From Pseudozobellia sp. WGM2 (GTDB taxonomy: Bacteria; Bacteroidota; Bacteroidia; Flavobacteriales; Flavobacteriaceae): 64,000 bases of DNA. Every line of letters starts with the position of its first letter. Position 1 is the first letter of the stretch. Both the position numbers and the translations under genes were made by a program. The notes below the pieces were generated by a model that worked only from the letters and a program-made list of their open reading frames with translations, was not told the origin of the DNA and searched no databases. Positions 6,420 to 50,688 of this stretch are shown here, piece after piece. The stretch lies in assembly GCF_017810075.1 (NCBI RefSeq), contig NZ_JADNYK010000001.1, forward strand, positions 620,001-684,000, given 5' to 3'.

Positions 6420-6863
6420 TTTTTGAAAGTTTACAGGCGTTATAAAATCTAGCCTTTTCAATTAAATCGGGTAATTTTTACCCATTTAAAAGTTTGCTAA
6501 TTTCCCGACATTTAACTAAGTAGTTTATATACAGTTATTTAAGATAGTTCTAAACACTAAAGAGTATCTTAGGCACATCTTTTGCTATTACTTTAATAAG
6601 ATAAGATTGATAGGTTCCCAAATCTACAATTTTTGGGTTATAAGCACCTACAAGAGACTTATACCACATGCATATACGGCGGATAGTTCCGTTACCTGTC
6701 ATCTCCTTTGTACCGATTTTAATTGCGCGTTTTAAATCATATCATCGTCGCCCGAAAATGGCAAAGATTACCTAGTACTTTCGATTTTTACCCTTATAAC
6801 AGCTTTAGCACATTATAAAAAAGTCAGCAGCAATAGAAATATAGAATCTAAAAACAGCACGTC
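6420..6863. other. 444-bp intergenic region, no gene seen
   Basis: No open frame with coding character. A small hairpin, GGGTAA-TTT-TTACCC (6469-6483), lies about 50 bp after the phosphotriesterase stop but lacks a T-run, so it is at best a weak terminator. The remainder presumably holds the promoter of the universal stress protein gene. Confidence 0.4.
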
Positions 6864-7709
6864 ATGAACAAAAAAATCTTGTTACCTACCGATTTTTCTA
6901 AAAATTCTTGGAACGCTATTCAATACGCGATCAATCTTTACGAGAATGAGCCTTGTGACTTTTATATTTTGAACACCTATGCCAAAGAAGTCTATGGTTT
7001 AGATAGCTATGAGATTTTAGATCCTGATCATCTTTTCAATAAATCTTCGGAAAAAAGGTCGAAAGAGGGCCTGGGAGATATTATGGTTCGGTTAACCTTT
7101 CTAAATGAAAATTCGAAACATCGATTTTTTGTACTTTCCTATTCTACGATGTTTTTATCTACGGTAAAAAAAGTCGTCGAAGACATGCAATTCGATTTAA
7201 TCGTAATGGGGGCGAAGGGTACCAACCTCAATCGAGCAAAACAATATGGTAAGAATACCTTAGACGTTATCGAGAATGTTCGACATTGCCCCATTTTGGT
7301 AGTTCCTACAAATGTTACGTTCAACCATCCGAAAGAAATCGTATTGGTAACCAATTTTGATAGAGATTTTAATATCGCCGAAGTAAAGCACCTAGCTGAT
7401 ATTGCTCAAATCACTAAGGCTAGTATAGAGGTGGTAAGCACTATCGACAATTGTGATCTTACCGCACATCAAAAAGAAAACAAGATGCTGTTACGTCAAA
7501 ATTTCAAGAATATCGAATACCGGTTTAGAGTGTTGCATAATGTGAAGATGAAAGCGGCCCTTAGTTGTTTTGTCGAAATCAGGCATAGTGGTATGATCAG
7601 TTATATCGACAAGAAACCGTCTTTGCTCGAATGGCTGGGCCTAGGCAGTTCTAGTCTTGGCAAATTGGGCTTTTTTAAAGATGTGCCCGTATTGGCATTG
7701 CACGGCTGA
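6864..7709 (+). CDS. Universal stress protein (tandem UspA)
   Basis: A 281-aa cytoplasmic protein of the two-domain UspA family. The first domain has the standard start KKILLPTDFSKNSWNAI and the nucleotide-loop signature VMGAKGTNLNRAKQYGKNT followed by ENVRHCPILVVP. The second half (from ~150) begins with KEIVLVTNFDRDF but its loop is degenerate, a common pattern in Bacteroidota Usp proteins where one domain keeps binding capacity. The family is linked to stress and growth arrest. Its stop codon lies inside a palindrome shared with the convergent EamA gene. Confidence 0.9.
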   Translation: MNKKILLPTDFSKNSWNAIQYAINLYENEPCDFYILNTYAKEVYGLDSYEILDPDHLFNKSSEKRSKEGLGDIMVRLTFLNENSKHRFFVLSYSTMFLSTVKKVVEDMQFDLIVMGAKGTNLNRAKQYGKNTLDVIENVRHCPILVVPTNVTFNHPKEIVLVTNFDRDFNIAEVKHLADIAQITKASIEVVSTIDNCDLTAHQKENKMLLRQNFKNIEYRFRVLHNVKMKAALSCFVEIRHSGMISYIDKKPSLLEWLGLGSSSLGKLGFFKDVPVLALHG

Positions 7710-44176: not shown

Positions 44177-44191
44177 TTACAGCTTGGGTAA
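44102..44191 (+). pseudogene. 29-codon ORF resembling a heavy-metal-binding motif fragment
   Basis: A short frame, MEHLLCEPTEGGECNVCGMK followed by nine more residues, whose GGECNVCGMK resembles the GKCPKCGM end of heavy-metal-binding domains (HMBD) found on efflux proteins. It overlaps the 3' end of the E2-like gene on the other strand by 15 bp. It may be a remnant of a longer gene or chance; no upstream continuation was found. Confidence 0.25.
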
Positions 44192-44851
44192 AATATAGTT
44201 GGGATTTTGTTTAAAGAAAGGAATTAATTGCTCCTTACCATCAAAATAAATATATGGTTTTATTAAAGATAGTTCTTCGAATGCATTTTTATGACAGTTA
44301 CGAAACTTCTTTTTATGACAAAAAGGACATTTAGCCGTTCGATTTAAAATTCGTCCTTTTAAAATGAAATCAAACATTTGTACCATTTGTAAAGGAGAAC
44401 TAGCTTTAAGTTTACTTTGGTAGAATTCAATTTTGCCAAATATTCCATGAGAATATTCCCCATATAAATAGTAGCCTTCCAATTCCCTATATTTTTGGTT
44501 AGCTAGGTAAGGAATCGCATATGTTTTAATGAATTCTTTTACACGTAGTCCCTTTTTACATATAATCATTTCACTTTCCGGTACGTCGATGCAGCATGAT
44601 TCGTCGATATTTACATGCCAATCAGCAATCTTTGGAAATGCATTTCCAGTTTCAAATAAAATTGGAAACATATTAGGATATTGCCGACTTCCTTTTATTA
44701 ACACACTATATGTTTCCCAAATTTTTCCCTCCCCATCTTTAATTTCGATTTCTCCAGAAAGAAATTTCTCTCCATTCTGGGTTACTACTTCTAACTTATC
44801 ATAATGTTGGGGTATTTCTAAAATATCTTTTTCAAATTGGCTACTAATCAT
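44177..44851 (-). CDS. Stand-alone E2-like protein of type II-short CBASS
   Basis: A 224-aa protein with a UBC/E2-like core: YSVLIKGSRQYPNMFPILFE (the YP..P strand) followed by DWHVNIDESCCIDVP, where H79 and C87 fit the E2 histidine and catalytic Cys (C86 is the alternative). The C-terminal part has C175-x2-C178-x7-C186-H187, a SEC-C-like zinc site. There is no E1 or JAB gene nearby, which defines the short CBASS type; E2 proteins of this kind join the CD-NTase C-terminus to cell targets and raise its activity. Its ATG overlaps the CD-NTase stop (ATGA). Confidence 0.8.
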   Translation of the reverse strand: MISSQFEKDILEIPQHYDKLEVVTQNGEKFLSGEIEIKDGEGKIWETYSVLIKGSRQYPNMFPILFETGNAFPKIADWHVNIDESCCIDVPESEMIICKKGLRVKEFIKTYAIPYLANQKYRELEGYYLYGEYSHGIFGKIEFYQSKLKASSPLQMVQMFDFILKGRILNRTAKCPFCHKKKFRNCHKNAFEELSLIKPYIYFDGKEQLIPFFKQNPNYILPKL

Positions 44852-45849
44852 TCTTTGCGATATGGTTTTGTAGTTGGAGGAATTATAGCCCCTAAGCCGC
44901 CCGAACTGCTTGAAGTATCGTCCTTATCATCTCCTAATGGAAATCTATCTCCTAAATGATTTCTCCAATATTCTGTCGACTTTTTATAATTCTTCTCTTT
45001 AAGCGCCTCCTTCGAATCATTTATAAAATTGCTTAAGCATTGTAAAAAATACTCTTTGTCCTTGTAATCTTCCAAAAGATTTTCATCTGAAGGGGTAGTA
45101 GGACGATAGCATGAAAAACTGGCGTCAAGTTTAGCTTGGATATTAATAAGAGTCTCCTTCAAGGCGATATCATCTCTATCCTTCCGTGAAACCAGGTTCT
45201 CAGTAATTAGTATAGTCAAAATGAGACCGCTTGGCATCTTTTTGGTAGAATTGCTAAAATGCCTAAAATCAATCCAGCTTTTGCCGTATCTAACTAATTG
45301 CCTAAGTTGTGGGGTTTCATCAGCTTTATCATTGAACCAATTTGTATATTCAAGTGGATCACTTTTTATATACCCATCTCTTTTATGTGCCAATTCGGGT
45401 GAGTTGCCCTGCTTGTAATATATTGGCTGATCAATATGATGACCATCGGAAAATACTGTTCTTACGCAAGTATTTTTATCTATTGGGGGCGTGCTAGTAT
45501 GGCCATCGACCGCTTGACAAATCCACGAGTGGTATGTTGCGGTAGAGGGCCTATCACTAGGTGATTTATCGCCAATAAAGTAGATACCATCATCGACATC
45601 ATATTTCAAAATAGTTTTTTCGGTTCCTTCAACTATTATTTTTCTCGGAATTGGGTTCACAATGGTGTCGGTTGACATAGAACCCTGCCCGTCAAATTTA
45701 GGCTTTTCATTTTCCGGTTGATTTTCTTTGAACCAATTTCTGACTTTTTTTCTTAGGTCTTTCCTTGATTTTTTTAATTCTTTTTTTCGAAAATCCGTGA
45801 GCTTAATTTTCCCATTAAACTCTTTAAAGTGTTCATTACAATTTGCCAT
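44848..45849 (-). CDS. CD-NTase (DncV-like cyclic oligonucleotide synthase)
   Basis: A 333-aa nucleotidyltransferase that senses phage infection and makes a cyclic di- or oligonucleotide. The active site is G54-Q-G-S57, then Y83-DVDDG with metal ligands D84 and D86, and a third Asp140 in HHIDQPIYY; LVRYGKSWIDF is typical of the DncV side of the family. The product cannot be read from sequence. The C-terminal tail (SSSSGGLGAIIPPTTK...) is flexible and would be the expected substrate of the E2-like protein, though it does not end in Gly. It lies 6 bp downstream of the effector gene. Confidence 0.9.
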   Translation of the reverse strand: MANCNEHFKEFNGKIKLTDFRKKELKKSRKDLRKKVRNWFKENQPENEKPKFDGQGSMSTDTIVNPIPRKIIVEGTEKTILKYDVDDGIYFIGDKSPSDRPSTATYHSWICQAVDGHTSTPPIDKNTCVRTVFSDGHHIDQPIYYKQGNSPELAHKRDGYIKSDPLEYTNWFNDKADETPQLRQLVRYGKSWIDFRHFSNSTKKMPSGLILTILITENLVSRKDRDDIALKETLINIQAKLDASFSCYRPTTPSDENLLEDYKDKEYFLQCLSNFINDSKEALKEKNYKKSTEYWRNHLGDRFPLGDDKDDTSSSSGGLGAIIPPTTKPYRKE

Positions 45850-45855
45850 TTTTCA

Positions 45856-46479
45856 TTATTTAATATGGTTAGTGTTCTTACTTTGAAATTTCAAGTCTAT
45901 TTTACCTTTGGTCTGATATGGAAGCCTTTCGGTGTAGTATTTCCCTATTAAATGCTTTCCATCTTTATTCTCGACCGCTTTTAGCATCTCGGTTCCAAAA
46001 TGCGGGCAAAAATCAAGTTCAAAATTTCCCTCGTTCAAATAATTGTAGAGTATGGAGAAGGTTCCATCTTTTTCTTTTATTATGCTAGCCTCTATACTTC
46101 TGGACAAAGAGGACATTGTACCATCTTTCCTTTTGGTCCATGAATTAACTACTATGTCCGAACCATTCTGAGTAATTACTTTGATATGTTCCAATTCATC
46201 TTTGACTTTTTGACACTTTTCATCAGTAAACTCGAATAACAAAGTTCCTGTATATGTGCCAGAAAAATCGGGAACACTGTACAGCCAACTAAATGGTCTG
46301 ACATTCCAGAGGTATTTGTTTATTAAAGCGAATAAAAACGACGTTAATGCAAATATGGAAAAAGACATACCCCAATGACTGGAGATGTAAACATTAGTAA
46401 AATAGAGGAGTAGTCCTAGCGCAATACACAACGGAATAAAGCTTTCGGGTTTCAAGTATCTAAGATTAAATCTATCCAT
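45856..46479 (-). CDS. cap15: Cap15-like CBASS effector (two helices plus beta-barrel)
   Basis: A 207-aa protein with two adjacent transmembrane helices (~14-32 and ~36-52) and a soluble beta-rich domain starting VPDFSGTYTGTLLFEF, the signature of the SMODS-associated beta-barrel found in Cap15. In characterised Cap15 proteins, cyclic-nucleotide binding by the barrel leads to oligomerisation and inner-membrane disruption, killing the infected cell. The gene directly precedes the CD-NTase, the normal CBASS arrangement. The family call is strong from topology and the FSGTYTG motif. Confidence 0.82.
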   Translation of the reverse strand: MDRFNLRYLKPESFIPLCIALGLLLYFTNVYISSHWGMSFSIFALTSFLFALINKYLWNVRPFSWLYSVPDFSGTYTGTLLFEFTDEKCQKVKDELEHIKVITQNGSDIVVNSWTKRKDGTMSSLSRSIEASIIKEKDGTFSILYNYLNEGNFELDFCPHFGTEMLKAVENKDGKHLIGKYYTERLPYQTKGKIDLKFQSKNTNHIK

Positions 46480-46541: not shown

Positions 46542-46715
46542 TTACTTTTCTTTTCTAACGCCTTTGAATTTGCCGCCAGTAGTTTTTACATCCATAAATC
46601 TTCCCGTTTCAGTATCTCTCTTTACAAAGAGTTTTGTTTTCGGGTTTAATACTTGGGAACGGCCTTTTACAGCTCCTTTTCTTGCGTTGTCTCCTATGGG
46701 TGGATTTTTAGCCAC
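46542..46715 (-). CDS. 57-aa basic protein heading the CBASS operon
   Basis: A small strongly basic protein, GTG start at 46713-46715, stop TAA at 46542-46544. It reads AKNPPIGDNARKGAVKGRSQ and ends GRFMDVK...GGKFKGVRKEK. The composition and evenly spaced glycines suggest a nucleic-acid-binding or ribosome-like extension; I recall similar short proteins in diverse bacteria but no assigned function. It lies 62 bp before the Cap15-like gene on the same strand and directly downstream of the shared promoter, so it is the first gene of the operon. The longest opposite-strand frame here is only its antisense shadow. Confidence 0.7.
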   Translation of the reverse strand: MAKNPPIGDNARKGAVKGRSQVLNPKTKLFVKRDTETGRFMDVKTTGGKFKGVRKEK

Positions 46716-46908
46716 TTTTTTGTTTTTTATAAGATTAATATTTATCTAATTATAAGTATATGCTCACATTTTTTCATATTTTGCCATTACCAATCAAAAC
46801 AGTGAGTAATCTATTATACTGTCTTACAATTGTATATGCTCATGAACTTTGTTTTTTTGCCATTTGGGCGGATATTTTTTAATATGGATGAGCATATTCT
46901 ATTGAAAT
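46716..46908. promoter_or_regulatory. Divergent promoter with three TGAGCATATWC boxes
   Basis: The 193-bp gap between the CBASS operon and the sigma-factor operon carries the same 11-bp box three times: 46756-46766 and 46832-46842 (read on the minus strand, TGAGCATATAC, pointing at CBASS) and 46889-46899 (plus strand, TGAGCATATTC, pointing at the sigma gene, whose ATG is at 46909). Nine positions are identical in all copies. They could be elements recognised by the adjacent sigma-like protein or operators for another regulator. Confidence 0.65.
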
Positions 46909-47523
46909 ATGGCTTTAGCGAGTAAAAAAGAAATTCTTGAGCACCTAGATTCCATTGATTTGAATGAACTTTTGGATAGGATGGAGAACTACGTCCGAAC
47001 TCGTTTTTATAATAAATCTGAGAAAGAACGAGAAGGGTTTGATTACCTTGATTTTTGTTATAATGTTCTAGTCAAAGCTTCAACAGGAGTTAGAAATTGG
47101 GATAAGGAAAAGACTTCTTTTGATAATTTTATTTTCGGATCTTTAAGAAGTGATTTATTTAACTTCTTTAGAAAACAAAAAAATAAGAAGAATGAAGAGG
47201 GAAATTTGCAAACCACAGAGCAAGAAATATACTTAATTGAAATAAATGACTTTGTTGAACTAGATGAAGTTGAAGCTGAAGATGAACCTCCAGATATAGA
47301 TTTTAAAGATATATGCGAAGACGCTCTGAAATCATTGAGGGAACAAGGAGCAGACAAATTGGAAATAGAAGTGTTTGAATGTTGGCTAGCTGGTTATTAT
47401 AAGCCAAAAGAAATAGCTGACTTGTGTAACATAGATACCACAGAAGTAAATAATACTGTCAAAAGACTTTCTAGAAAAACTATTAAGTTAAAAGAAAAAT
47501 GGATAAGCTTAAAAAAATCGTAG
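46909..47523 (+). CDS. ECF-like sigma factor beside CBASS
   Basis: A 204-aa sigma-70-family protein. Region 2 is visible as FDYLDFCYNVLVKASTGVRNWDKEKTSFDNFIFGSLRSDLFNFFRKQ (~44-90), corresponding to the core-binding and -10 recognition helices, and region 4 as ALKSLREQ...GYYKPKEIADLCNIDTTEVNNTVKRLSRKTI (~145-195). An acidic linker joins them. It is divergent from the CBASS operon and overlaps the next gene by 25 bp. I infer that it activates CBASS and its own operon; a phage or mobile-element origin is also possible. Confidence 0.75.
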   Translation: MALASKKEILEHLDSIDLNELLDRMENYVRTRFYNKSEKEREGFDYLDFCYNVLVKASTGVRNWDKEKTSFDNFIFGSLRSDLFNFFRKQKNKKNEEGNLQTTEQEIYLIEINDFVELDEVEAEDEPPDIDFKDICEDALKSLREQGADKLEIEVFECWLAGYYKPKEIADLCNIDTTEVNNTVKRLSRKTIKLKEKWISLKKS

Positions 47524-47897
47524 ATAAAGGTTTTACCGAGAACTATCTTTTTGGAGATATAAATGATATTCGCAAAAGTTTATCTGATTATGGAGTCAAT
47601 TTAGATGATAATAGGCAGCGTCAAAACAAGCTGATTAAACAATTAAAGTTTAAACTTCGTTCATCTATATACAAAGAAAAAAATGAAAACCTTTTGCTTA
47701 AGGCAACAGAATCATTTCAAGAAGCTATAAATAAGGGGCTAGAAAAACCAATTGCTTATTTGAATAACCTGATTAAAGAGAATCAATTGTTAGTGCAGTA
47801 TAACAATTTGGACAAGTTAAGCTCCGATGAAATAAAAGAAATCATTAAAGACCAAAATTTGATTGAAATAATTGAGTTACTTGAAAACGAACAGTAA
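47499..47897 (+). CDS. Small helical protein, candidate sigma antagonist
   Basis: A 132-aa soluble, highly charged, helical protein with no recognisable family (LKKIVDKGFTENYLFGDINDIRKSLSDYGV at the start, then long amphipathic helices ending IIELLENEQ). Its ATG lies inside the sigma gene (25-bp overlap) and its end overlaps the metallopeptidase frame (26 bp), so the three are made in fixed proportion. The position between a sigma factor and an ImmA/IrrE protease suggests an antagonist that the protease destroys; this is inference from gene order. Confidence 0.6.
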   Translation: MDKLKKIVDKGFTENYLFGDINDIRKSLSDYGVNLDDNRQRQNKLIKQLKFKLRSSIYKEKNENLLLKATESFQEAINKGLEKPIAYLNNLIKENQLLVQYNNLDKLSSDEIKEIIKDQNLIEIIELLENEQ

Positions 47898-48681
47898 AGG
47901 GAAAAATAAGGCTAAAGAGGTCCTAAATGAAATTGGTTTTGATGAAATAACAGAGCTTACAAATTCAGATTTAGTTAGTGGTTTTGGTATACTTTTTATT
48001 GCTGAACCCTTAAAAAATGCCGATGGAAAAATCATAAGAGGTAAAACCAAGACCATAATAAAAGTAAACTCGTTAATACCTTATCCACAAAGAATACGCT
48101 ACGTAGTTGCACACGAATTAGGACATTATTTTTTACATGAAAAATTGGAAATCCACACGGACAATTCTAAAACACTAAACTGGTTCAAAGTAGAAGACCA
48201 AGCAAAAAGGGGATTACAGGAATTTGAAGCGAATGATTTTGCTTCAGAATTATTAATGCCTGAAAAGGTTTTTCGTCAATTTATCAAGCATAAACCTTTT
48301 AGTCCTTCTTTAATAAAGGAAATATCTGATAGATTTCATACCAGCTTAACGTCTGTAGTTTATAGATTAATAACTTTAGATGTGTTTCCATTATTAGTTG
48401 TTTTCATTTCTGATGGATTAGTAAGATATTGGAGAAAATCCCCAGATTTGAAAGGTTGGCTAAAAGATCTTACCAAGCTTTCTCCACCCGAGGATTCCGT
48501 TGCAAAAGAATATATTGACTCCGATTATGATTTTATCTATAAAGGAGATGAAAAAGCTCAAGAAATAGACCGTTCCACTTGGTTTAAATTGTACGAAAAT
48601 CAAGAAGATTCTGATTTTATGGAGTATTGCATTCCTACCATGCAGTATAAAACTATAATCAGTATAATATGGGAAGCTTAG
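47872..48681 (+). CDS. ImmA/IrrE-family metallopeptidase
   Basis: A 269-aa protein with a zinc-peptidase core: RYVVAHELGHYFLH (HELGH at 81-85) and the downstream glutamate helix FEANDFASELLMP. This is the ImmA/IrrE (DUF955) pattern; known members cleave a repressor (ImmR, DdrO) after DNA damage, and CapP cleaves CapH to induce CBASS. The C-terminal ~110 residues form an unrecognised domain that may sense a signal. The frame begins at TTG 47872 or 47881, with no ATG available, overlapping the previous gene. Confidence 0.85.
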   Translation: MSYLKTNSKGKNKAKEVLNEIGFDEITELTNSDLVSGFGILFIAEPLKNADGKIIRGKTKTIIKVNSLIPYPQRIRYVVAHELGHYFLHEKLEIHTDNSKTLNWFKVEDQAKRGLQEFEANDFASELLMPEKVFRQFIKHKPFSPSLIKEISDRFHTSLTSVVYRLITLDVFPLLVVFISDGLVRYWRKSPDLKGWLKDLTKLSPPEDSVAKEYIDSDYDFIYKGDEKAQEIDRSTWFKLYENQEDSDFMEYCIPTMQYKTIISIIWEA

Positions 48682-49287: not shown

Positions 49288-50688
49288 TTATTTTTTTGAT
49301 TTAATATTATGATAAATTAAGAATCCACTTCCGCCAACGGCACCTCCGCCTGTAACCCCGGCTATAGCCGTAACTACTAATTTTGTTTTTAATCTTTGCG
49401 TTAATTTTAAATTGTATTCATTTATTGTTTCAAGCCAGAACTCGTCACTATTTGACAAATTCATAGATTTAGCGGTTTTGATGGATTCAACTATATCATC
49501 AAAATTCACAAAATCTGTCGTAATGTGACCGCCGGTCTCTAAGCTTTTTAGATTATGACTGTTACAAGTTATATAATCAGAAATACCATAATGGGCAGGT
49601 TGTTGACCAAATAAGGAATTGTCTACATTGTTAAAAATGACAACTGGTGAGTCTTTGTTTCTTTTTGCTTTGTTCAGAGCAAAAATCAATTCATTTTCGT
49701 TTTCAACAATTAAATTAAAATTATTCTCACCTATTTTTTCCACTGTTCTATATATCTCATTCGTCTGTTCATCAGAAATGTTAAACAATGATTTCAGTTT
49801 CGTTTTATTTTTAGAGGCGACATAAATAAACTTAATTTTCTCTGGTTCAACATCTATATCCGTTAAGAAGGATTTGTAAGTTCTAATAAATTTCACTCCT
49901 TTATTTGATAAAGAGTGAACTAACTTTTTGCTTAAAGGTGCATTTAATATAATCTTAGAATTTTTCTGAAGACCAATCCCGTTTAAAGGGTTAGTATGAG
50001 AATTCTGTCTAGTTCCTCGGGTAGTATTTATAATTACGGAATTTTCGTCTATTGATTTGACAAGAACATAACTTTCATATCTTTTAGGGGTAGCCGTAAT
50101 TCTTCTGTTTGTTAGTTTTGAAAGAGTTTTTGCTTGTTTTTCATTTAGTGACATTCCCTTTAATAGTCCAAATAACTCATGTTTATTACTTTGAATGGGG
50201 AGGTGTCGTAAATCTTCTGGAACGATTCGATATTTCGCATATTTTAGATTTTTAAACCTTAAAAAGTTATTTTTAAATTCATTTGTAATTGTACTTTCGG
50301 CACCGAAATCACTACTTAATTCATCAATATCGTTTAAAAACCCGCTTACTTCCTTACTGAAGTGTTTCCAAGAATATGAATTGGAGTTCTTAATTGATTT
50401 AATCAGGAGTTTCTTTTCACCTTGAGTTAAATTAACATTGTCGAAAACACTCTTTTCGAAATTACTATTGTCAGCAGATTTATATGTGCTTTCTAAAAAT
50501 TTATCGGAAACCTTAGCCGCATCATCTATTTTATTATTTAAACTTTTCGGAATTTTTTTAAAGCTCTTTGTTGTAGATTTTTTACATGCGTTTATAAGAA
50601 CATTATCCGTACATCTGCTCAATCCGACAAGAAGTAAAATTATAGTAGCCCCAATTTTTGGTAATTTTTTTCCCATACCAATGAACAA
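49288..50688 (-). CDS. 466-aa membrane-anchored protein of unknown family
   Basis: A protein with an N-terminal hydrophobic signal anchor (IGATIILLLVGLSRC; Arg at -1 argues against a true lipobox), a helical, charged middle, an alpha/beta-looking segment from ~285 (KIKFIYVAS, DSPVVIFNNVDN, ISDYITCNSHNLKS) and a C-terminal Gly-rich helix (LVVTAIAGVTGGGAVGGSGF). The two anchors leave a ~420-residue domain on one side of the membrane. I recognise no family. It sits in the AT-rich island next to CBASS, paired with a small membrane protein, so a defence or conflict role is possible. The ATG at 50676 (MGKK) is an alternative start. Confidence 0.65.
   Translation of the reverse strand: MFIGMGKKLPKIGATIILLLVGLSRCTDNVLINACKKSTTKSFKKIPKSLNNKIDDAAKVSDKFLESTYKSADNSNFEKSVFDNVNLTQGEKKLLIKSIKNSNSYSWKHFSKEVSGFLNDIDELSSDFGAESTITNEFKNNFLRFKNLKYAKYRIVPEDLRHLPIQSNKHELFGLLKGMSLNEKQAKTLSKLTNRRITATPKRYESYVLVKSIDENSVIINTTRGTRQNSHTNPLNGIGLQKNSKIILNAPLSKKLVHSLSNKGVKFIRTYKSFLTDIDVEPEKIKFIYVASKNKTKLKSLFNISDEQTNEIYRTVEKIGENNFNLIVENENELIFALNKAKRNKDSPVVIFNNVDNSLFGQQPAHYGISDYITCNSHNLKSLETGGHITTDFVNFDDIVESIKTAKSMNLSNSDEFWLETINEYNLKLTQRLKTKLVVTAIAGVTGGGAVGGSGFLIYHNIKSKK

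Follow-up and report, generated by a model that had tools for sequence, protein, structure and literature searches.

Autoregulated ECF sigma factors are two-domain sigma proteins with a bipartite promoter, spaced by approximately 16 nt, upstream of their own operon. The original paper on CapH+CapP is reportedly that of Lau et al. 2022. It is still an open question how self-killing defence systems are held silent and then activated. According to the available part of one account (PMC13373217), CapP-type ImmA/IrrE proteases are encoded beside diverse immune operons, activation of CapH+CapP by single-stranded DNA has been reported, and CapW, CapH+CapP and CapK+CapS are DNA-damage-responsive defence regulators acting by relief of repression. 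In the Calp system (CalpL-CalpT-CalpS of type III CRISPR), a protease cleaves the anti-sigma factor CalpT, and this cut presumably sets CalpS free (PMC11417357, likewise available in part).

The locus analysed here lies in a 64,000-nucleotide stretch of DNA from Pseudozobellia sp. WGM2; this whole stretch is called the window below. It carries a CBASS operon and, divergently, a cassette of three genes coding for an ECF-like sigma factor, a protein termed X and a CapP-type protease (Table 1). Like CapH+CapP, it places a CapP-type protease by diverse immune operons (PMC13373217, same part). Unlike CapH+CapP, the partner is a sigma factor together with X and not a helix-turn-helix repressor, and the DNA element is promoter-like, not operator-like; the adjacent CapH repressor that would define CapH+CapP is missing, its place being taken by sigma and an all-helical X without significant Pfam match. 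With Calp, the precedent for antiviral defence through a sigma factor that a protease sets free, the locus shares the putative logic of protease, anti-sigma and ECF sigma factor. CalpL, however, is a SAVED-Lon protease that cA4 activates (for both points, the accessible portion of PMC11417357). No SAVED-Lon protease is found here, the protease being of M78/CapP metallopeptidase type; moreover, no solved protein was detected as a relative of X, and the sequence allows the target promoters to be read. CapK+CapS, again a regulator pair located by diverse immune operons and responsive to single-stranded DNA (PMC13373217, in part), consists of a kinase and a STAS-wHTH repressor, without sigma factor and without protease. 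From ECF sigma factors in general, the present one differs by co-encoded CapP, by apparently driving a neighbouring defence operon and by its own -35/-10 letters. The parts are thus known from CapH+CapP and from the sigma/anti-sigma/protease set of Calp. The literature searched yielded no account of the combination: neither a sigma factor paired with CapP nor this promoter is described among the literature matches listed, in which preprints and subscription papers are thinly covered.

Table 1. Genes and predicted promoters of the locus, with positions in the window
Feature	Position	Strand	Basis or remarks
E2-like protein, CBASS operon	44177..44851	-	PDLC00865 4e-59
DncV-like CD-NTase (CBASS cGAMP synthase)	44848..45849	-	PF21654 9.2e-15; PDLC00774 5.6e-119; NF041078 7.9e-65
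Cap15 two-transmembrane CBASS effector	45856..46479	-	PF18153 3.6e-10; PDLC00669 3.5e-64
57-aa protein, first defence-operon gene, GTG start	46542..46715	-	no Pfam match
Predicted proximal CBASS promoter	46756..46786	-	-35 TGGCAA 46786-46781, N16, -10 AGCATA 46764-46759
Predicted distal CBASS promoter	46832..46862	-	-35 TGGCAA 46862-46857, N16, -10 AGCATA 46840-46835
Predicted sigma-operon promoter	46869..46899	+	-35-like CGGATA 46869-46874, N16, -10-like AGCATA 46891-46896
ECF-like sigma factor, 204 aa	46909..47523	+	TIGR02937 6.5e-10, model, Foldseek; sigma2 + sigma4, disordered linker
Protein X, 132 aa, all-helical, candidate anti-sigma	47499..47897	+	overlaps both neighbour genes
CapP-type ImmA/IrrE metalloprotease	47872..48681	+	capP 1.6e-58; M78 1.2e-15; solved CapP 7t5t

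The first cassette protein is a sigma factor as judged by profile and, roughly, by the fold of its model. Its TIGR02937 score is just below cut-off, and 14 of 16 sigma homologues match this profile. The model (mean pLDDT 68) consists of helical blocks 6-96 and 132-203, with a linker (95-129) below 50. Among the Foldseek matches listed, sigma factors largely prevail and ECF SigH is among the best; TM-scores are low (0.23-0.34, query-normalised) and a single match reaches E <= 0.001. Presence of sigma2 and sigma4 regions without sigma3 is as expected of an ECF sigma factor, and so is a bipartite promoter for autoregulation in front of the sigma operon, which is recognised at the sequence level only.

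For X, no relatives of note were found in Pfam, NCBIfam or PDB. Profile search gave only weak unrelated matches, the best being ribosomal protein S20 (0.0092), and the AlphaFold model, of moderate quality (pLDDT 78.6, pTM 0.53), had no PDB match at E <= 0.001. A recognisable anti-sigma fold was thus found neither by model search nor by profile search, and X is like no solved anti-sigma factor in sequence or fold. The protease has the IrrE/M78 domain with HExxH, conserved in all 16 aligned homologues, as well as the C-terminal part of CapP; the profile covers residues 62-275 of 291 in 7t5t, its best solved relative. Genes of sigma and X overlap at 47499-47523, and those of X and CapP at 47872-47897, the latter only if CapP begins at TTG. 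These overlaps suggest matched amounts of the three proteins. On the other side, CD-NTase, effector and E2 together satisfy the definition of CBASS (Cap15 type). Downstream of the cassette, a 466-aa ORF (49288-50688, minus strand) matches nothing in Pfam or PADLOC, even with E values up to 1 allowed.

The sequence-only reading had noticed three directional copies of TGAGCATATWC between the CBASS and sigma genes. All of them are exact and on the strands claimed, TGAGCATATAC at 46756-46766 and 46832-46842 (both minus) and TGAGCATATTC at 46889-46899 (plus); they spread over 144 bases and no further exact copy occurs in the window. The additional agreement that it had mentioned on either side of the boxes resolves into a TGGMAA-like hexamer exactly 16 nt 5' of AGCATA in each of the three, an element that, like X and CapP, this reading had not recognised. 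The box is hence interpreted as one half, the downstream and -10-like one, of a bipartite unit (approximately TGGMAA-N16-AGCATA), the 16-nt spacer of which corresponds to ECF-type promoter spacing. One unit points toward the sigma gene and two toward the CBASS operon. The predicted distal CBASS and sigma promoters stand back to back, their -35 hexamers separated by 6 nt, and the proximal CBASS promoter is solitary, without inverted partner. Since the sigma-side -10 is followed after only 12 nt by the ATG at 46909, a near-leaderless sigma transcript is predicted. Across the nine closest loci, the sigma-side box keeps one constant distance to the start codon, and the proximal solitary unit is present in eight of them, being missing in L012. 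The sigma-side -35 of the window, CGGATA, is weaker than the versions of its relatives (TGGATA or TGGAAA in the other eight).

Concerning the genome background, the proposal would have failed had the box been common throughout this genome. It is not: there are 7 exact copies of TGAGCATATWC in 4,701,663 bases (4.70 Mb), against none for the pattern read backwards. The four copies outside the window all lie within ORFs and lack a -35-like element at the right distance, as they are not among genomic matches of YGGMWA-N16-AGCATA. The count of the 11-mer alone was rejected as evidence, being uninformative once mismatches are allowed: with up to two, 30 occurrences were found in the window versus a shuffle mean of 31.8. 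The bipartite pattern [TC]GG[ACT]WW-N13..18-AGCAT matches 3 times within 260 bases ahead of the sigma start codon, compared with a mean of 0.023 when this stretch is shuffled by dinucleotides (any match in 7 of 300 shuffles). Genome-wide, a relaxed bipartite pattern occurs at background level (11 versus 9 for its reversed control), and so does a looser one (5 versus 4). Of the eight other genomic matches of the relaxed pattern, seven overlap an ORF of at least 60 aa, and the eighth (L060) is intergenic, aimed at the 3' end of a gene. We therefore rely on comparative evidence and claim no wider regulon.

Cassettes of this type were collected from 29 distinct Bacteroidota loci (window, L008-L014, L025, L027, L029-L033, L044-L046, L073-L078 and L115-L119; L026 and L028 repeat L008 and L014). 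Profiles of sigma, X and CapP match neighbouring ORFs, in that order, in 28 of them. For 13 loci (window, L009, L012, L014, L027, L029-L033, L044-L046) the match is by construction, because their rows built one or more of the profiles. The loci retrieved from the class and the phylum were found by X alone, and their sigma and CapP neighbours therefore represent independent support. In L116, the ORF in sigma position (197 aa) is not scored by the sigma profile, and the CapP ORF of L117 has just 141 aa. Sigma matches were found in 10 of 397 family genomes (1e-20), CapP matches in 10 of 395 order genomes (1e-15), four of them of a distant type, and X matches in 8 of 395 class and 10 of 395 phylum genomes (1e-6; the samples overlap). 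G227, the only other congeneric genome sampled, lacks both the sigma and the CD-NTase, which agrees with what a mobile island would show. Search of plasmids for sigma gave no match and search of phages for CapP two weak partial ones, so that no mobile carrier was identified.

Where identified, the divergent operon varies among cassette loci. By profile, it contains a PycC-like cyclase with PycTM and E2 (L013), SMODS with Sa_NUDIX (L014), DarT and DarG with a 416-aa protein (L009), a CD-NTase with a phospholipase (L031) or with E1-E2 (L044), a CD-NTase (L075, L078), BilD (L076) or a weak E1-like match (L045). The CBASS type of the window recurs in L008 (BLAST, on its copy L026), relatives of E2 were recognised by BLAST alone in L029, L030 and L033, and for the first large gene of L073 nothing better than a weak match (0.001) was obtained. 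L077 lacks a divergent defence operon; its cassette (L077:3133-7732) adjoins a gene for a TnsB-like transposase. The defence-gene scan left out L027, L032, L118, L119 and large genes of L115-L117, and covered only the small first gene of L046 and L074. The operon of L013 (4377-6577) looks like an unusual mix of Pycsar-like and E2 genes.

The partner in L010, L011, L012 and L025 is a protein of 414-416 aa. We observed it at L009:5127-6377, L010:5337-6581, L012:5603-6850, L025:5149-6399 and L048:5541-6785, once followed by DarT-HD and DarG. The members scanned had no PADLOC match (L010) and no Pfam match (L009, L012); it is possibly an unrecognised defence protein. Further, a small protein heads or sits in many cassette-side operons, unrelated small families taking that place: the 57-aa family in the window operon (46542-46715), DUF2188 (L073:6510-6743, L115:6650-6895, L116:4296-4544), DUF1508 (L074:5484-5828, L046:7848-8213) and DUF3892 (L044:7447-7761, L117:4891-5151).

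Comparison of homologous loci, by which the sequence-only reading had suggested that its proposal might stand or fall, revealed that the box is conserved. Within 260 bases upstream of sigma, the bipartite unit is present in 17 of 22 loci with sigma-like, X-like and CapP genes; L046-L050 lack it, L047-L050 being of the distant type. A total of 42 units was found, 41 of which have a spacer of exactly 16 even though 13-18 were permitted; the single exception, in L044 at -215, is located within a divergent 104-aa ORF. The set includes close kin (sigma is 87-91% identical to that of the window in five loci of one set of seven), and 17 of 22 is therefore not a count of independent events. The sigma start used for L031 is not a start codon, and its boxes were found regardless.

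A scan free of any motif, scoring every back-to-back 6-N-6 pair in the 120 bases upstream of 22 sigma genes, gave a concordant picture. At spacer 16, 17 of the 22 loci score 11 or 12 of 12, versus 1 of 220 shuffles. The number of such loci is highest at this spacer and the mean score at 15; spacers 13-17 yield 13-17 loci, since matching runs past the hexamers, spacer 10 yields three and spacer 22 one. Lower scores were obtained for L076 and L078 (10 each), L074 (9), L118 (7) and the window itself (9), whose own pair is thus missed; among the 17 high-scoring loci, the pair in L077 is probably due to chance. Five phylum-level loci, L115-L119, were fetched by X after the general pair pattern had been fixed. 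In three of them, L115, L117 and (more weakly, with TTG hexamers) L116, this pattern detects both boxes upstream of sigma, and within 3 kb it also has stray matches at other places in L115-L118; in L119 both boxes were found by the motif-free scan, and L118 has a matching box on one side only. In 20 located pairs, 0-7 bp separate the -35 hexamers. It can be inferred that they are probably too close for two polymerases at once, and the pair may therefore fire alternately.

Relatives of the window CD-NTase occur in 17 of 397 family genomes, and two of these, the window genome and G225 (L008), have the cassette type together with boxes. No bipartite unit is located upstream of the operon in the other 15 (L049, L096-L109; only 260 bases were covered in L049), the only pattern matches being inside ORFs elsewhere in L107 and L108. 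Three of the 15 (L049, L096, L100) have the distant cassette type. Because boxes also precede unrelated operons, they are inferred to belong with the cassette rather than with the defence operon.

Within a locus, the letters of the two boxes change together and those of the spacers do not. For the 13 loci assessed with the general pattern, using free columns only and not those fixed by the pattern, -10 boxes differ by 2.54 mismatches within locus versus 4.26 when re-paired (0 of 20000 permutations). Agreement of the -35 is less sharp (260 of 20000) and that of the spacer is absent (14892 of 20000). When each sigma cluster is represented by a single locus, the respective values are 3, 86 and 18317 of 20000. 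A 16-locus version employed locus-specific patterns for L046, L076 and L078; as these risk circularity, the test was repeated without them, and the picture is the same in both versions. The box also follows sigma divergence: in a Mantel test on 20 loci, the further apart two sigma proteins are, the more their sigma-side box cores differ (r 0.56, 0 of 5000 permutations), and this relation is weaker for the spacer (r 0.24, 43 of 5000). Box distances include L046, L078 and L119 via special patterns, and shared ancestry of whole loci contributes to the correlation. The sigma tree groups L115-L117 (AGCTA boxes), L045 with L073, L075 with L076, and L046 with L119; box letters are identical or almost so within each of the first three groups, and L046 and L119 jointly depart from AGCAT. 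L074 has an AGCTA sigma-side box, yet its sigma groups apart from the other AGCTA loci.

Promoter elements of the adjacent sigma factor and operators of a coregulator were the two alternatives originally offered for the boxes. The former is the better supported, the boxes being conserved, rare in the genome and linked to sigma: they are absent from the 15 relatives with the same CBASS and without this cassette type, and both elements vary with sigma. We consider it very probable that the three boxes are -10 halves of ECF-type promoters read by the adjacent sigma factor, in the absence of start-site, binding or expression data. RNA polymerase with this sigma would read all three TGGMAA-N16-AGCATA promoters, one driving the sigma-X-CapP operon, i.e. 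positive autoregulation, and two the divergent CBASS operon. X would act as anti-sigma factor keeping sigma inactive, until an infecting phage or damage to DNA switches CapP on, probably via single-stranded DNA; CapP would then cleave X, and freed sigma would switch on the defence genes and amplify itself. Binding and inhibition of sigma by X, the trigger, the cleavage and the release are all inferred: X as anti-sigma and CapP as its protease by analogy with CapH+CapP and Calp, and nothing computed shows X binding sigma or being cut by CapP. On this full chain, promoters included, our judgement is evenly divided. The cassette itself is read as a portable module, set by evolution beside many defence operons with matching promoters on both sides. 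Our judgement is just as undecided on the broader picture of an immune switch of a new kind, in which an X-silenced sigma and a CapP sensing phage-made single-stranded DNA and cleaving X would fire a dedicated back-to-back promoter pair; this pair would have co-evolved with its sigma and come to lie by CBASS, Pycsar-like, DarTG and Bil operons across Bacteroidota, giving each island a private transcription system insulated from the remaining genome.

A sigma factor with private promoters would amount to positive control: without the switch the genes would stay silent, and after triggering the system would amplify itself. As the promoter code can be read from the sequence, the model lends itself to direct testing. 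Matching box pairs offer a route to genes belonging to such switches, and the loci form a natural set of apparently co-evolved sigma/promoter pairs.

With promoters and sigma left as they are, control itself might be different, CapP being an off-switch that destroys sigma, or X an activator or chaperone. This is rather unlikely in our view and still has to be taken seriously, as the three proteins are connected by gene order and conservation alone and X has no solved anti-sigma factor among its likenesses. What speaks for inhibitor removal instead are the gene overlaps (the second one conditional on the TTG start), with the matched amounts they suggest, and the course of like systems, Calp (PMC11417357) and CapH+CapP (PMC13373217), in which, in those parts of both papers that are available, the protease removes the inhibitor.

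Back-to-back -35 hexamers form an inverted repeat, which could also be an operator; perfect 13-nt arms are present in L045 (around one base) and in L119. The boxes might accordingly bind a repressor, either X or the helix-turn-helix part of the sigma-like protein in a CapH-like role, that is relieved by CapP cleavage, with promoters read by the housekeeping sigma; in CapH+CapP, CapP does cleave a repressor (PMC13373217, accessible part). Such an operator is, however, difficult to reconcile with a unit that is non-palindromic and two-part, with freely varying letters in its 16-nt spacer, that occurs as a solitary copy without inverted partner in eight of the nine closest loci, and that accompanies a regulator with both sigma2 and sigma4 regions. 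The housekeeping promoter consensus of Bacteroidota is TTTG/TANNTTTG. No full promoter of this kind is found in 46716-46908, only one-mismatch matches to the -7 half, and the operator appears improbable. Chance repetition in an A+T-rich intergenic stretch, to which shuffle-level 11-mer counts and the genome-wide level of the relaxed pattern would be agreeable, is refuted practically beyond doubt by the motif-free scan, by box concordance within loci and by the position, orientation and spacing that 17 of 22 loci have kept.

In L013, a 57-bp tandem duplication lies between the two defence-side promoters (intergenic, 6805-6918), and the proximal box is at -207, compared with the usual position of about -150.

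The distant cassettes, which combine a sigma-like protein, a protein of 101-114 aa and CapP, are located at L047:6066-7795, L048:3505-5288, L049:3339-5107, L050:8966-10767, L096:3218-4998 and L100:5778-7567, and these loci were excluded from the 29-locus box family. Those of L049, L096 and L100 adjoin CBASS with a relative of the window CD-NTase. No TGG-N16-AGCAT units were found at the distant cassettes; instead, a palindrome upstream in L049 and direct repeats in L050 were noticed by eye.
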